Positions 5,002 through 13,152 of a DNA stretch of 64,000 nucleotides are shown here, in pieces (positions within the stretch are counted from its first letter, which is position 1; each line of letters starts with the position of its first letter). The position numbers and the translations under genes were made by a program. The notes below the pieces were generated by a model. The model did no database searches. It was not told the DNA's origin and saw nothing but the letters and a program-made list of their open reading frames with translations. This DNA is from Gammaproteobacteria bacterium (lineage in GTDB: Bacteria; Pseudomonadota; Gammaproteobacteria; JAADGQ01), in the NCBI GenBank assembly GCA_021648145.1, contig JAKITI010000001.1, positions 124,001-188,000 on the forward strand, read 5' to 3'.

Positions 5002-5910
5002 TTATAAAACTGCAGAAAACGCGCTGTTTTTCATGACTGCCATAATTTTTTGGGCATAGGCTGGGTCAGTGGCATAACCGGACTCCTGCAACGCAGTCGC
5101 AAAACTTTGTGAGCTGCGTCCCACTTTTAATACTTCGGCATATCGAGGGTTTTCTTTTAAAAATTTTGCATAGTCGTCAAAACTTTCGTTATACGACGAA
5201 TAGGAACGAAACTGTGCTCGTTCACGCTCGGCGATGCCATCCTTATATTCCAGCGTTGAAACAGTGGCTCTCTCTCCTTGCCATGAAGCATTGGCCTTGA
5301 TGCCAAATAAATTAAAGCTGTTACTGCCATCTGAATGCTTGATAACCGATTTTCCCCAGCCTGTTTCTAAAGCGGCTTGTGCCAAAATTGCTTGTGGTGA
5401 AATGTTTAGCTTCTCTCCTGCTTGCTGGGCTAATGGCCATAAATCACGAACAAATTCTGCGGGCGACTCAAAGGCCGCTGTTGTGATTTTAGATGCAGGG
5501 GCAGGGGCAGGTTTAGATTGATCGATGGGTGTGACTGAAGCTGGAGGCCGCTGTGGGGGTTTAAGCTCATGTGTTGAATTTGGTGATACCTGTGTATCGA
5601 AACCCGCAGTCACTGAGAGTTGTCTGATTAATATCTCAGCCAACCCCAGATTGTAACCACTATTCGATGATGAACTGAGTTGCTGGTCGAGCATTCCCTG
5701 AAAAAGTTTGCTCTGATCAGTATCAAAAATTCCATCCCCCAAACTTGCAGATCTCATGCTCTTCAGCATCATATTCATGAATATGGATTCAAACTGTTTA
5801 GCGGCTGCTTTAAGTGTTTCAGGGGTTTGTTCTTTTGCGTTGCTCTGCCTTAATTGTTGCAAACCTTTAGGGTCGGTCGCAAGGCTTGATATATCGAATT
5901 CTTTTATCAT
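5002..5910 (-). CDS. flgJ: Flagellar rod-capping and peptidoglycan hydrolase FlgJ
   Basis: Bifunctional periplasmic protein of 302 residues that caps the growing rod and opens the peptidoglycan. The N-terminal rod-binding domain is at about residues 30-100 (AAKQFESIFMNMMLKSMR; LFQGMLDQQLS). A Pro/Ala-rich linker (110-145) leads to a glucosaminidase domain (about 148-300) with the catalytic Glu in QAALETGWGKS (E182) and FNLFGIKA. It is the first gene of the flgJKL run. Upstream there is no flgI or other rod/ring gene but a divergent lipoprotein, so the usual flgB-to-flgL order is interrupted here. I see no convincing sigma-28 or sigma-54 site in the 240 bases ahead of it. Confidence 0.95.
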   Translation of the reverse strand: MIKEFDISSLATDPKGLQQLRQSNAKEQTPETLKAAAKQFESIFMNMMLKSMRSASLGDGIFDTDQSKLFQGMLDQQLSSSSNSGYNLGLAEILIRQLSVTAGFDTQVSPNSTHELKPPQRPPASVTPIDQSKPAPAPASKITTAAFESPAEFVRDLWPLAQQAGEKLNISPQAILAQAALETGWGKSVIKHSDGSNSFNLFGIKANASWQGERATVSTLEYKDGIAERERAQFRSYSSYNESFDDYAKFLKENPRYAEVLKVGRSSQSFATALQESGYATDPAYAQKIMAVMKNSAFSAVL

Positions 5911-6151
5911 GAATATGAGTAACTCGTTATAGTTCTATACTCAAACTTAGAAAAAATCGTAATAGTGAAGTCTGTCCCACACTGTTTTTTTCATAACTGA
6001 TACACTCCTTTTTGATTGTTTCATCTGAACTTAATACTTTGATATCGACCTGAAAAAATAAGTGTTTAATATTCTTACTCTGGAATTCATAGCAACAAAG
6101 CTATTTTTCAGCTATCTTAAAGGCAATACTTCCAATGAAAACGAGAAAGTT

Positions 6152-6916
6152 ATGTTGAAAAATCGATCAATAATGAATCATTTTATGGCACGAGTGATAA
6201 CAATGTTGGTAACAGCGTTTTTAACTCTCTCTTGTGCGAGTACTCCGCAGAACAAATTAGCGGAGCCCAATAATTTTACCTTTGAAAACTATGACTTTTT
6301 AGTTGTAAAAAAGAGTACATCACTATCTGATATTGATATTGAGTTTGGTGACTTGATGAAAATTTACAATATGAAAGTTATCACTGTAAATGAATATGAA
6401 AATATGGTGTCGGAAAACCAAAAAAGAACACTTTTTACGAAAATTTATTTAGATAATAAAACAGAAAAAAGTCAGTTAATTGTTTTATTTAAAGATTCTG
6501 TTACAGGAGAAGAGAAAAGAAGTTTTAGCGGGCACGCTGAAGGTGATATGTACAACAGCAAGGATCGGTCAAAAGCACTTCAAACGGTCTCAAATAAAGT
6601 TATCAAAGAACTCAAAGAAGATAAAGGATTATTGGCTAATAAAAGCAATATGTTAGCCGAAGAACGTGAAGCTATTTTACCTGGTGTAAAATCAAACAAG
6701 ACAGATTTTTTAACAAAAAGTTATATCGTTACAGCAGACACATTGAATGTCAGAAAAGCTCCGGTAGTAGGACTTGATATCATTGAAAAAGTAAAAAAAG
6801 GTCACATTTTAACAAAGATATCCTCACTGTTAGGTTGGGTTAAAGTAGAACTTCCTTCTGGAAATATCGGGTGGGTGTCTATGAAGTATTTGCAACCGAT
6901 TGATGAATCCCAGTAG
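6152..6916 (+). CDS. Putative envelope protein with C-terminal SH3 domain
   Basis: 254 residues. An N-terminal hydrophobic signal (ARVITMLVTAFLTLSCAS) ends in a possible lipobox, although the minus-3 residue is Thr rather than Leu, so lipidation is uncertain. Residues about 35-190 are charged, Lys/Glu-rich and match nothing I recognise. The last 60 form a bacterial SH3 domain (ADTLNVRKAPVVGLDIIEKV, LGWVKVELPSGNIGWVSMKY), a fold that binds cell wall or protein ligands. I chose the ATG at 6152, preceded by GAGAAAG, over the far-upstream GTG at 6062. The gene is visibly AT-richer than its neighbours, stands alone between divergent flgJ and the next gene, and may be acquired. Confidence 0.75.
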   Translation: MLKNRSIMNHFMARVITMLVTAFLTLSCASTPQNKLAEPNNFTFENYDFLVVKKSTSLSDIDIEFGDLMKIYNMKVITVNEYENMVSENQKRTLFTKIYLDNKTEKSQLIVLFKDSVTGEEKRSFSGHAEGDMYNSKDRSKALQTVSNKVIKELKEDKGLLANKSNMLAEEREAILPGVKSNKTDFLTKSYIVTADTLNVRKAPVVGLDIIEKVKKGHILTKISSLLGWVKVELPSGNIGWVSMKYLQPIDESQ

Positions 6917-7151
6917 GTCGATACTCCGCCGCTGATCTTGATCTTAAATATATAAAGAAAAACTAAAATCAGCCGACTTTAGCTCCATAGCTTTACCTCT
7001 TTCAATATGAATATTCGCTGACCAGAATATGAATAATGTATTTTTGAAATTTGTGAGGGCATACACATAATTTTTAGTATTCCATAGTTATAGTTATTCA
7101 TAGTTACATAATTAGTTGTGTAGATGGTTAAATTATTAATAAAGGAATCAC

Positions 7152-8808: not shown

Positions 8809-10278
8809 ATGAGAAGAAGAAACTTTATTAAATCAATGGGTGCATTGGGTGCGACTGCCAGTCTGCCTGCAATGTTTTTCAATGACTCATTCATCAAACG
8901 AGCAGCGGCAGCACCGATGCTTGATGAGGTCAACTTTTTAGCCCCAGCTGTTATGCCACAGGTTATTAATATCTTTCTTTATGGAGGGGCTTCCGAACTG
9001 GCAGGTAATTTGACCAATATTGAAGATATTGATGCTAACTCACAGAACCGTTACCCGAGCAGATTATTAGAGCCGACAACGGATGAAGTGAGGGGAATAA
9101 CGCGTAATGGACTGTGGAGTGATGCAGGGGGTGATGCCATGGAAGATATGTTGGCCTCAGAAGATATGTCAATTTACCGAACTGTTTATCGCCGTAAAAA
9201 TAATACTCGCTCACACCGACCCAGCATTTTTTCCTGTCTTACGGGAAATCTGGATATCAATAATAGCCCAGGTATGGGCACTACCCTCGCCGCAGTTTTG
9301 TACAAAAATCGCGACAATTTGCTTAATAAACCAATAGATGAGTATAGGTTGCCATTTGTTTCATTTGAGGGGGCTTCGACCGCTTTTATGAGCGATAAAA
9401 ACAACCCACTGCCATTGGCAATGCGTTATATCAGCTTGAACCAAAGGTTTGATAACCCCTATAGTCGTGATACTCGTTATAATCGAAATAATTTTGATGC
9501 TGAGCTGGAAAGTCTGGTTTCACAGATGAACATTGAGGGTATTAACAAGCGCTACTCTAAAGCATTTGATGGCTTCAAAACACGCAGGGATATGGAAGAA
9601 CTTATTGGAGAGTTTGCCACAGCGCTTAATGATACGCCGCTTCCGGGGCTTCCCGAGGGGGATGTTGATGCGGGAGAAGACGGGGTTTTGCAATACCCTG
9701 ATACCCCCCATAGAGATAGGGTGAAAGCGGCTGTCACATTGGCTATTGCTAACCCTGATAGTTTGTTTATTACAGTGGGTGGTGGCTTGGGGGGGTGGGA
9801 TGATCATGACTCTGCCATTGATGAGTATACCGACCGAATGGAGTCTTTAATGACAACCCTGCGCGCTGCAACCAAACATATTAAATACGCAACTCGTCCT
9901 GATGGCACCAGCACAGGAAACATTATTATCAATGTATTCGGTGATTTTGGTCGTAATGTTAACTTGAACAATTCCAGGGGTTGGGATCATGGCAATAATC
10001 AAAACCTTTATACCTTTGGTGGTAAGGATATTCGTCCGGGTACGTTAGGTAAAATTGTTGGAAAAACAGAGCGTTTTGGTGATTCAAAACAGAACCGCCA
10101 GTTTACCAGGCCGACTGAAGATAGTTATGATTTTGAACCGACTGCCATTGCTGCAACGATGTACTCATATTTTGGTGTGCAGAATCCTAAAGTATTGACT
10201 CGAGATGATGAACATTATCCTGATGGAGTGAATAAAATTGACGAAAACGTTGCTGGAGAGGATCCAATGTTTTCTTAA
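8809..10278 (+). CDS. Tat-exported DUF1501 family protein
   Basis: 489 residues with a twin-arginine signal at the very start (MRRRNFIKSMGALGATAS, cleavage probably near AAAAP at residue 35), so it is folded, possibly with metal, before export to the periplasm. The mature part has DUF1501 features: QVINIFLYGGAS near the N-terminus, NNTRSHRPSIFS, TVGGGLGGWDDHDSAIDEY with a His/Asp cluster typical of this alkaline-phosphatase/sulfatase-like superfamily, NVFGDFGRNVNLN, and GWDHGNNQNLYTFGG with a conserved Asp-His. The biochemical role of the family is not established. It is co-transcribed with the lipoprotein just upstream. Its stop overlaps the converging apbE stop by four bases. Confidence 0.88.
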   Translation: MRRRNFIKSMGALGATASLPAMFFNDSFIKRAAAAPMLDEVNFLAPAVMPQVINIFLYGGASELAGNLTNIEDIDANSQNRYPSRLLEPTTDEVRGITRNGLWSDAGGDAMEDMLASEDMSIYRTVYRRKNNTRSHRPSIFSCLTGNLDINNSPGMGTTLAAVLYKNRDNLLNKPIDEYRLPFVSFEGASTAFMSDKNNPLPLAMRYISLNQRFDNPYSRDTRYNRNNFDAELESLVSQMNIEGINKRYSKAFDGFKTRRDMEELIGEFATALNDTPLPGLPEGDVDAGEDGVLQYPDTPHRDRVKAAVTLAIANPDSLFITVGGGLGGWDDHDSAIDEYTDRMESLMTTLRAATKHIKYATRPDGTSTGNIIINVFGDFGRNVNLNNSRGWDHGNNQNLYTFGGKDIRPGTLGKIVGKTERFGDSKQNRQFTRPTEDSYDFEPTAIAATMYSYFGVQNPKVLTRDDEHYPDGVNKIDENVAGEDPMFS

Positions 10279-11159
10279 AGGCACCAAAAATCAACCTCCT
10301 GAGCTTCAAGAAAACTACGAGCTTGGCTGCCCTGCAACATCGCCATGGTTGAGAGCATTCCAGCTTCCAAGCAGGTATTAGCAATAACGGTAATGGCTTT
10401 GGGGGTATCCGGAGCCGGCCAGCCAGTCGTTGGATCCAGAATATGACTGTAACGAACACCCTCTTTAAGCAAGTAGCGCCGTGCATCACCGCTGGTTGCC
10501 AGTCCGCCTTTTGATAGATTGACTGCGCCAATTTGCTTGACTCCGGTTGCTTCTGGATCATCAACTCCTACGCCCCATGGCTCTCCATTTTGTTGTGGGC
10601 CCAGAGCGTATAAATCCCCGCCATAGTTGATGAGTACTCCCGTCTTTAGTCTCTTGAAGATCAATTTGGCCGTCTGATCGACAGCGTATTCCTTACCAAT
10701 ACCACCCAGGTCAATTTCCATTCCAGTGGGGAGGGTGATTGTTGATTCAAACCATTTGACCTTACTCCAACCGATACGTGGCAAGATGGCTTCAACAGCG
10801 GTTGAGTCGGGAATATTGTCACTGCCATCAAACGTCCAGACTTCACGCAGCACCCCAGATGTGATATCAAACTTGTGTTCACTGAGTTGATAACATTGCT
10901 CGGCAAAATTGAGTAAATGGGCAGTCTCTTTATCCACTAAAACGGGGGTGCCGTTACTTTGATTTATTTGGTAAATACAGTTGTCTGCACGGTAGCGACT
11001 GAATTTTTTTTCGATGCGTTTTGCTTCGGTATAGCTTTGTTGTAAAAGCTCTCTGGCTAGAGAGCGATTTTCAGTTGCGAACAGGATTTCACAGGGGCTG
11101 GCCATGGCGTGGAAAAATCCGCGCCAGTAACCTTTTTCTTTAGTCAGTCTAGGAGGCAA
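10275..11159 (-). CDS. apbE: FAD:protein FMN transferase (ApbE family), apparently without signal peptide
   Basis: ApbE enzymes split FAD and attach FMN covalently to a Thr or Ser of a target protein, Mg-dependent. Family blocks are all present in the 294 residues: AMASPCEI near residue 19-26, EIDLGGIGKEYAVDQTAKLI, VLINYGGDLYALG, GGLATSGDARRYL, YSHILDPTTGWPAP and CLEAGMLSTMAM. The frame opens with TTG at 11159, eight bases after the DUF3570 stop with AGAGAGAG ahead; an ATG at 11105 would cut into the conserved N-terminus. No signal peptide or lipobox is visible, which is odd because many relatives are periplasmic. It is last in the tlpA-DUF4266-DUF3570-apbE operon, which points to a substrate encoded alongside. 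Confidence 0.93.
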   Translation of the reverse strand: MPPRLTKEKGYWRGFFHAMASPCEILFATENRSLARELLQQSYTEAKRIEKKFSRYRADNCIYQINQSNGTPVLVDKETAHLLNFAEQCYQLSEHKFDITSGVLREVWTFDGSDNIPDSTAVEAILPRIGWSKVKWFESTITLPTGMEIDLGGIGKEYAVDQTAKLIFKRLKTGVLINYGGDLYALGPQQNGEPWGVGVDDPEATGVKQIGAVNLSKGGLATSGDARRYLLKEGVRYSHILDPTTGWPAPDTPKAITVIANTCLEAGMLSTMAMLQGSQARSFLEAQEVDFWCL

Positions 11160-11167
11160 GACTCTCT

Positions 11168-12376
11168 CTAATTAAATTCTTTCTTGTAACTGGCCTGAAA
11201 AATTACCGCCTTGTTAGTATTAAATTCCGCCTCAGCAAATGATTGATAGAGATATTCCAGACGGAATCTCAGAGTGCCTCCCCAGGCTGGCATGCCAAAT
11301 TTAGTTCCCAGAGTTACGCTGTTGATTTCATCTAGGCGATAGTCGGCGCTCGCATATTCTGGTAACGGTTGATTATTATCCAGGCTGCTCTGGAATATGT
11401 CAGCAGCCGTCTGAGTATAGAGGCGTATATGAGGCTCCAGATAGTAATTTTTGGTGAATTTTATACGATGCTTATAGTCAAAAGTATGAGAGGTAATATC
11501 CCAATCATCCAGGTAAAAACGATAGGATAAGTGGATAGTGTTTTTATTTTTCAGTTGATGCACCAAGGCGCTGTACAGCGTCTGTTGCAGACGGTTTTCA
11601 GGTCGACTTTCGTAATAACGTTTCTCTTCAACACCACCACTATCTGTCATACTGATTAATTTATAAGGGTCCGTCATATAGCCTTCTGTGGAACTGATGG
11701 TGTAGTTTAGTTGTGTTACGGTGCGACGATTGGTGATTGAAGAGATGCCCAGCAGTGCCTCATAACTACGTTTATTTCCCTTTCCAAAAAATTCTGGGTT
11801 GCCCGAATTTTCCTGGACATCACCCATCGGTTTGGGGGTTTGCCCTGAACGCTGGGAAATGGTGTCATAGGCGCCTGCAATACCGGCGCTGAAGGTGAGG
11901 TTGCGGTTAGATGTTTCTTTATCAAATATGAGGCTACCACCGTAAGATTCATAGTCACTCTCAAGAGACACGCTGGCACCGTAGTTCATTTTGAATGTTC
12001 TGCTGTGGCGATGCACCCAGCCTACGTCAATGCCTACACGAGTATCATTAAACTCAACCAGATCAGGTGTGCCGGCGGCTGTTTTGAAACCACTGCCTCC
12101 AGAAGAGGGGGTGGTGACCGACACGGTGCTCACTGATTTAACAGCTCCCGTGGGCGTGGCTCCGGTCACAGTATCGTAAACAGCTTCCAGCGATATTACG
12201 TCATTATCTCCCAGAGGTGTTTTGGTTTTGGTGATGATTTTATTAACGGTGACTCGATCATCAGCTTCACTATAAAAAAGATAAGATGTATCTATTTCAG
12301 TAGCATTTGCCTGTTGCGCACCTTGGGATAATACCGTACAAGCGGCGATGGCCAGTTTATTACGAATTGATTTCAT
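11168..12376 (-). CDS. DUF3570 outer-membrane beta-barrel-like protein with a flavinylation-type motif
   Basis: 402 residues with a Sec signal (residues 1-25, cleaved near ANA). Alternating strand-like segments follow (RVGIDVGWVHRHSRTFKMNY, SYRFYLDDWDITSHTFDYKH), ending in aromatic-rich LEYLYQSFAEAEF and a short tail, as in outer-membrane barrels. Near the N-terminus lies D68-TVTGAT, a match to the DxxTGA(T/S) consensus on which ApbE places FMN; the acceptor would be Thr74 (codon 12155-12157). A second TGA follows (PTGAV). The family has no established function that I know. It sits between the DUF4266 lipoprotein and apbE. That the motif is modified is inference. Confidence 0.85.
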   Translation of the reverse strand: MKSIRNKLAIAACTVLSQGAQQANATEIDTSYLFYSEADDRVTVNKIITKTKTPLGDNDVISLEAVYDTVTGATPTGAVKSVSTVSVTTPSSGGSGFKTAAGTPDLVEFNDTRVGIDVGWVHRHSRTFKMNYGASVSLESDYESYGGSLIFDKETSNRNLTFSAGIAGAYDTISQRSGQTPKPMGDVQENSGNPEFFGKGNKRSYEALLGISSITNRRTVTQLNYTISSTEGYMTDPYKLISMTDSGGVEEKRYYESRPENRLQQTLYSALVHQLKNKNTIHLSYRFYLDDWDITSHTFDYKHRIKFTKNYYLEPHIRLYTQTAADIFQSSLDNNQPLPEYASADYRLDEINSVTLGTKFGMPAWGGTLRFRLEYLYQSFAEAEFNTNKAVIFQASYKKEFN

Positions 12377-12397: not shown

Positions 12398-12631
12398 TTA
12401 ATTACACCCACAGCCACCACCGCCGATACCTCTGCCGCCAGTAGAAGCCTCTTTGCTGAAATAAATATGATCATCAACATAACTCTCAATAGGGTCGGCA
12501 TCCAGCTGCATGGCTTCTTCAGTCAGCACTCCTTTTTGCCATGGTTTTACAGATTCAGTTTGAAACGCCGCACAGGCTTGCAATGTTGTCAGCAGCATGC
12601 CTGCCAAAGTAATTCTAAATATATTCATCAT
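12398..12631 (-). CDS. DUF4266 small lipoprotein with Gly/Cys-rich C-terminus
   Basis: 77 residues. The signal with lipobox LQAC puts the lipidated Cys at residue 20. The mature peptide of under 60 residues contains VKPWQKGVL and DDHIYFSKEAS, and ends in a Gly-rich tail with two cysteines, GGRGIGGGGCGCN. That ending is, as far as I recall, characteristic of DUF4266 and travels with DUF3570 proteins. Its start overlaps the tlpA stop by one base (TAATG), so it is translationally coupled to a thioredoxin that could act on the CGC pair. Function is unknown: it could be a redox carrier, a metal ligand or a substrate for modification. Confidence 0.85.
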   Translation of the reverse strand: MMNIFRITLAGMLLTTLQACAAFQTESVKPWQKGVLTEEAMQLDADPIESYVDDHIYFSKEASTGGRGIGGGGCGCN

Positions 12632-13125
12632 TATTCTGCCACCAATTTTTCAATGGTGGCCTCAATTTCTCTCTGGTACTTTTTAGGTGAACCCTGATAG
12701 GTTTTTATGATAAAACCTTTTTTGTCAATCAGGTACGAGGTGGGCATTACTTTGACTCCATAAGCTTCGGCAGATTTCCCTTCCCGATCAAACCCAATGG
12801 TAAAATTAGCTGAGTATGTCTCTAGGAATGCAATCGCATCTCTAGGAGACTCATCAAGGGCAATGGCAATAACCTCCAGCCCTTTATCTTTGTAACGAGC
12901 TTGAAGTGTATTCATCCAGGGAAATGACTTGCGACACGGTATACACCATGATGCCCAGAAATCGAGATAGACAACTTTGCCATGAAAATTGGCTAAATCT
13001 ACAGTCCCTTCGGTTCCAGGCATCTGAAAGCGAAGAGCCTTGTTAGCTGAAGATACAGTGGATGAATAAAAAAAGAGAGACAACAGAATTGATATTACAA
13101 TGGTGGTCGCCGTTTTTTTAAGCAT
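12631..13125 (-). CDS. TlpA/ResA-like exported thioredoxin
   Basis: 164 residues from the ATG at 13125 (AAGGA eight bases before it; an in-frame GTG lies two codons upstream). An uncleaved or cleaved N-terminal hydrophobic signal (residues 8-26) exports the thioredoxin fold. The active site is WASWCIPCRKSF with cysteines at about 61 and 64, followed by the conserved cis-Pro region MPTSYLID. TlpA/ResA proteins reduce disulfides in specific periplasmic partners, for example cytochrome maturation factors. Here it leads an operon with DUF4266 (which has a CGC tail), DUF3570 and apbE, so that local partner is the likeliest substrate (inference). Confidence 0.9.
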   Translation of the reverse strand: MLKKTATTIVISILLSLFFYSSTVSSANKALRFQMPGTEGTVDLANFHGKVVYLDFWASWCIPCRKSFPWMNTLQARYKDKGLEVIAIALDESPRDAIAFLETYSANFTIGFDREGKSAEAYGVKVMPTSYLIDKKGFIIKTYQGSPKKYQREIEATIEKLVAE

Positions 13126-13152
13126 GATCACATTCCTTGGTGCATAGTTTAA

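Follow-up and report, generated by a model that had tools for sequence, protein, structure and literature searches.

Organization of the locus

The window (the whole stretch of DNA analyzed, 64,000 nucleotides of contig JAKITI010000001.1 of a gammaproteobacterium) contains on its minus strand a cluster of genes in the order redoxin/thioredoxin, DUF4266 lipoprotein, DUF3570, and apbE (Table 1). That a thioredoxin and a lipoprotein accompany DUF3570, and that apbE is the next gene, had been recognized from the sequence alone; the family matches bear this out, with the thioredoxin and DUF4266 genes preceding DUF3570 and apbE following it after an 8-base gap. At their 3′ ends, apbE and a convergently oriented DUF1501 gene share four bases (window positions 10275–10278). 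The absence of a classical ApbE substrate from the window, likewise claimed before, was confirmed, as no FMN_bind protein was found among the 28 window proteins scanned; one is encoded outside the window, elsewhere in the genome. An Rfam scan of the window returned a tRNA alone.

Table 1. Features of the DUF3570 cluster (positions within the window).
Feature	Position	Strand	Evidence
Redoxin/thioredoxin-like protein, exported, with WCIPC	12631..13131	−	PF08534 3.2e-23, PF00578 1.3e-22; hydrophobic N-terminus
DUF4266 small lipoprotein, C-terminal GGGGCGCN tail	12398..12631	−	PF14086 2.8e-21; CGC in 99/99 relatives
DUF3570 protein, 402 aa, predicted 16-strand outer-membrane β-barrel, N-terminal signal sequence	11168..12376	−	PF12094 E 3.3e-93
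Flavinylation motif codons D68-T-V-T-G-A-T74	12155..12175	−	Translation
apbE, cytosolic-type (without signal peptide), TTG start as listed	10275..11159	−	PF02424 E 7.9e-69

This combination of genes is already on record. In Meheust et al (2021) (eLife; PMC8238504), DUF3570 is named as an ApbE substrate, and clusters of ApbE, DUF3570, thioredoxin, and DUF4266, sometimes with DsbD, are described; the apbE, thioredoxin-like, and DUF4266 genes by which such clusters are recognized are all present here. According to the same study, the DUF3570 protein of Chlorobium luteolum is flavinylated by its cognate ApbE, and the modification is lost only when both motif serines are replaced. The locus shares with those clusters the four families and the motif, but it lacks a DsbD gene and its DUF3570 has one [S/T]GA[S/T] site, whereas two are modified in C. 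luteolum. Within this published system, the locus is unremarkable. The sequence-only reading, which had suggested that the DUF3570 protein may carry covalent FMN, was right in its main idea, but not in calling the system one not known to be characterized, because it had been described in 2021.

Two features are absent from the discussion in the passages of that paper that were consulted, namely a flavin site facing the lumen of a barrel and a dedicated ApbE without signal peptide. Neither the barrel nature of DUF3570 nor a signal-less ApbE is stated there; the text uses “outer membrane” a single time, for something else, and never “cytosolic ApbE” or “cytoplasm”.

The flavinylation motif

Residues 68–74 of the DUF3570 protein read D68-T-V-T-G-A-T, and their codons lie within the segment (12134–12178) for which a flavinylation consensus had been proposed. 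Across all window reading frames of at least 150 aa (20,594 aa), D-x-x-[ST]-G-A-[ST] occurs only once, and it arises in 0.4% of shuffles of the DUF3570 protein. An alignment of DUF3570 homologs, suggested earlier as a check, showed the motif to be conserved, D68 and G72 being unchanged in all of 54 close relatives. A chance motif is ruled out by this invariance together with the uniqueness in the window. At the position of the second C. luteolum site, the protein reads TTPS; a subgroup of DUF3570 proteins with two sites does exist (L075, L092, L093, L096, and L098).

In NqrC and RnfG, FMN_bind proteins sharing the DxxTGAT motif, the last Thr carries the covalent FMN. DUF3570 differs from them in lacking the FMN_bind domain PF04205 (only DUF3570 was matched) and in being a predicted β-barrel instead. 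In DUF3570, FMN would be expected on Thr74. The flavinylation reading is well supported by motif conservation, by co-occurrence with a dedicated apbE (see below), and by the experimentally flavinylated homolog described in PMC8238504.

A signal-less ApbE subfamily that tracks type-A DUF3570

The profile of the ApbE domain encoded next to DUF3570 also matched solved ApbE structures. Its Ser223 and His239 align with the triad residues Ser241 and His257 of Vibrio cholerae ApbE; Asp285 of the latter, part of the proposed catalytic triad/metal site (PMC12052999), aligns with Gly267, which is invariant in 20/20 aligned relatives. Hydropathy and inspection, by which the absence of signal peptides was judged throughout, revealed neither a signal peptide nor a lipobox in this ApbE; such sequences are typical, but not universal, in ApbEs. 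Two other ApbEs of this genome carry signal sequences.

In a class-wide sample of about 100 DUF3570 loci, two types were distinguished. Type A aligns over the entire Pfam model, and nearly all its members have D/E-x-x-[ST]-G-[AS]-[ST]; G72 is kept in 53/53 single-site and 7/7 two-site proteins. Type B reads DSISSAS, Ser replacing Gly in 31/35 members, the class calls resting on the aligned letters of MAFFT alignments in which some motif-region columns of divergent members are uncertain. It departs from type A also at E37, P75, G77, D236, R258, and R347; R113, E139, D141, P259, R286, D290, W292, R318, and Q322 are common to both. Three frames that match DUF3570 and read DTWSGAT at the motif (L040, L051, and L063) are 904–920 aa long, the usual length being 400–450 aa.

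The ApbEs beside type A have in common a core close to FxAMASPCEVL and lack a hydrophobic N-terminal segment. Maximal 11-residue hydropathy upstream of this core had medians of 0.53 (43 proteins) and 0.59 (56 proteins) in two sets drawn from overlapping genome groups; the same measure was 2.24–3.05 in ApbEs with evident signal sequences, among them the two others of this genome. Not one convincing signal peptide was found in these 99 cytosolic-type ApbEs. By bit score, the subfamily is sharply set apart, with 52 matches at 231 or above and the rest at 206 or below in 369 genomes of the class. Type-A DUF3570 is encoded in 49 of these genomes, the cytosolic-type ApbE in 51, and both in 48 (Fisher 2e-55). 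Within the 18 families comprising genomes of both sorts, one is found where the other is and missing where the other is missing, apart from a single exception. The correlation extends to Acidobacteriota, where the same 4 genomes have both and 0 others of 247 do. A further Acidobacteriota group (seven genomes) has DUF3570 with the motif DxxSGASPxG and a more distant ApbE next door. The cytosolic type was also reached, through loci, in two Manganitrophus-type genomes and a Gemmatimonadetes genome. At one locus (L060, 7263–7968), apbE is split into two overlapping frames, which reflects a frameshift in the gene or the assembly.

Few genomes depart from this pattern. Three have the cytosolic-type ApbE without type-A DUF3570 (G034, G056, and G193), and no DxxSGAS reading frame lies within about 6 kb of their apbE genes (L221, L219, and L220, respectively). 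Only G052 has type-A DUF3570 without this ApbE. A damaged motif was considered as the reason, one copy reading DVMTGPS, but this was dropped in view of a second, truncated copy with DTMSGSS. The adjacent ApbE belongs, as sequence comparison has it, to a distinct subfamily dedicated to type-A DUF3570. Because it lacks a signal peptide and co-occurs across genomes with its exported partner, flavin attachment probably takes place in the cytosol, ahead of export.

Type B behaves differently with respect to apbE. Thioredoxin and DUF4266 are retained in both types, in type B at nearly every locus, but type B usually lacks apbE, and the few ApbEs adjoining it are of the signal-bearing kind. An apbE gene lies within 1.5 kb in 33/54 loci with the motif Gly versus 5/36 others (P 9e-6, with loci taken as independent of kinship). 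The genome studied here itself encodes a second DUF3570, of type B (L039; G000:C3:130836-143351, ORF 5833–7104, minus strand), in a cluster with thioredoxin and DUF4266, without apbE, and with the motif DSISSAS. Type B provides a built-in control: it shares the thiol partners, but its motif is broken and apbE is usually missing. To take its loss of the Gly as proof that it carries no flavin would be unsafe: a Gly-to-Ala exchange in another system cuts flavinylation only by about half (PMC12052999), and type-B loci of Acidobacteriota sometimes adjoin a signal-bearing ApbE. At L255, L284, and other Acidobacteriota loci, a type-B-like DUF3570 reading DNVSSASID...DNVSGAS adjoins such an ApbE; periplasmic flavinylation at the second site is possible there. 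Both the lack of a signal peptide in ApbE and the sister type without intact motif, usually without apbE, had been overlooked when the locus was read from its letters alone.

A predicted outer-membrane barrel with thiol partners

An AlphaFold model of DUF3570 (54 sequences) is a 16-strand barrel with a pLDDT of 88.5 and a pTM of 0.84. Its best fold matches are solved outer-membrane barrels (e.g., BcsC, BamA, CdiB, CymA, and OmpG), and MtrB is among the structural matches. The C-terminus (...KKEFN) has the aromatic residue expected of outer-membrane barrels; the signal sequence is modest by hydropathy. As a rule, both chain ends of outer-membrane barrels are periplasmic. The long loops of the model all follow odd strands and, provided that both ends are indeed periplasmic, would lie on the extracellular side. 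The model has Thr74 where strand 3 reaches its outer end and, by strand parity, on the lumen side. The strands hold 40 strongly conserved residues; 35 face the lumen, 32 of them in the outer (upper) two-thirds of the barrel. DUF3570 is hence modeled as an outer-membrane barrel with T74 predicted to face the lumen near the extracellular end, where conserved residues cluster. Model confidence and fold matches lend weight to the earlier guess of a barrel-like protein; of that interpretation as a whole, the barrel and the flavinylation are supported, and the supposed novelty is not. A search of the open-access literature found no paper linking flavinylated proteins to outer-membrane barrels of the DUF3570 kind.

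A similar task has been proposed for MtrB-type porin–cytochrome conduits, in which an outer-membrane barrel passes electrons. Unlike these, the DUF3570 barrel has 16 strands and its cluster encodes no heme proteins (CxxCH, indicative of a multiheme cytochrome partner, is missing from all four cluster proteins), but flavin and thiols instead. The CGC tail end of DUF4266 is universal among the relatives (Table 1), and WCxxC is present in nearly all cluster thioredoxins. No membrane electron donor is encoded in the DUF3570 cluster; DsbD, which could act as one, is encoded elsewhere in the genome. We infer that electrons flow from the thioredoxin to the DUF4266 CGC and on to FMN. That the DUF4266 tail might reach into the barrel from the periplasmic side is no more than an idea.

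Proposed mechanism and alternatives

Starting from what was observed (the motif and its conservation, the order of the genes and their co-occurrence, and an ApbE without export signal), we favor, with moderate confidence, a four-gene envelope flavin/thiol redox module with cytosolic FMN loading, export, a barrel, and thioredoxin/DUF4266 feeding the flavin. With FAD as the source, the dedicated ApbE would transfer FMN to Thr74 of the preprotein while this is, presumably, still in the cytosol. The flavinylated chain would then be exported and inserted into the outer membrane as the modeled 16-strand barrel, and the FMN would sit in its lumen, close to the extracellular mouth. Reducing equivalents would probably reach the FMN from the periplasmic thioredoxin-like protein via the CGC tail of DUF4266, and the FMN may hand electrons to an acceptor located either outside or within the lumen. 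The Sec machinery can translocate chains that bear added groups, as is also indicated by a title cited in PMC6028853. The specific notion that a Sec-exported preprotein crosses the inner membrane with FMN attached, loaded by a cytosolic ApbE lacking the canonical Asp, and ends up with this FMN in the lumen of the barrel, close to the cell surface, seems slightly more probable than its opposite.

If DUF3570 were flavinylated only after export, the adjacent ApbE would have to reach the periplasm unconventionally, or one of the two signal-bearing ApbEs of the genome would have to do the work. The latter are at hand, and a review (PMC12052999) describes the ApbEs that serve secreted targets as periplasmic, membrane-anchored enzymes, but type-A DUF3570 tracks the signal-less subfamily in 48/49 genomes and none of 99 such ApbEs has a convincing signal peptide, which makes this route rather improbable. 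Less easily dismissed, albeit still unlikely, is that the barrel carries FMN while thioredoxin and DUF4266 serve folding or maturation, the FMN acting in an enzyme or sensor at the surface that is driven from outside. Type B, keeping both thiol partners although apbE and the motif Gly are mostly missing, fits this, as does the outward-facing position predicted for the FMN; against it stand the redox motifs kept throughout (DUF4266 CGC and thioredoxin CxxC) and a DUF3570–DsbD linkage in 227 clusters, reported in PMC8238504.

Cytosolic ApbEs with cytosolic substrates are known, for example that of Klebsiella pneumoniae for soluble fumarate reductase (PMC12052999). Like the ApbE studied here, it has no signal peptide and is dedicated to one substrate; its fumarate reductase, however, stays cytosolic, whereas DUF3570 has a signal sequence and is predicted in the outer membrane. 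That the DUF3570 motif is incidental and another cytosolic protein is modified would suit the three genomes with this ApbE but without type-A DUF3570, and yet it is hardly credible given motif conservation, operon linkage, co-occurrence in two phyla, and the DUF3570 homolog reported in PMC8238504 to be directly flavinylated. A catalytically dead ApbE and a barrel without flavin, conceivable because Gly267 replaces the triad Asp invariantly, are very improbable as well: the triad Ser and His are kept, and the family has been retained with its substrate over many lineages.

As flavinylation of DUF3570 was known already, it is the geography that matters. Where ApbEs modify exported proteins, the reaction is understood to be periplasmic, but in this case the genomes that have a signal-less ApbE are those with an exported substrate, one predicted to form an outer-membrane barrel. 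If the favored module is true, a covalent flavin would be installed before translocation, and at the cell surface the barrel would be an alternative to cytochrome conduits that relies on flavin.
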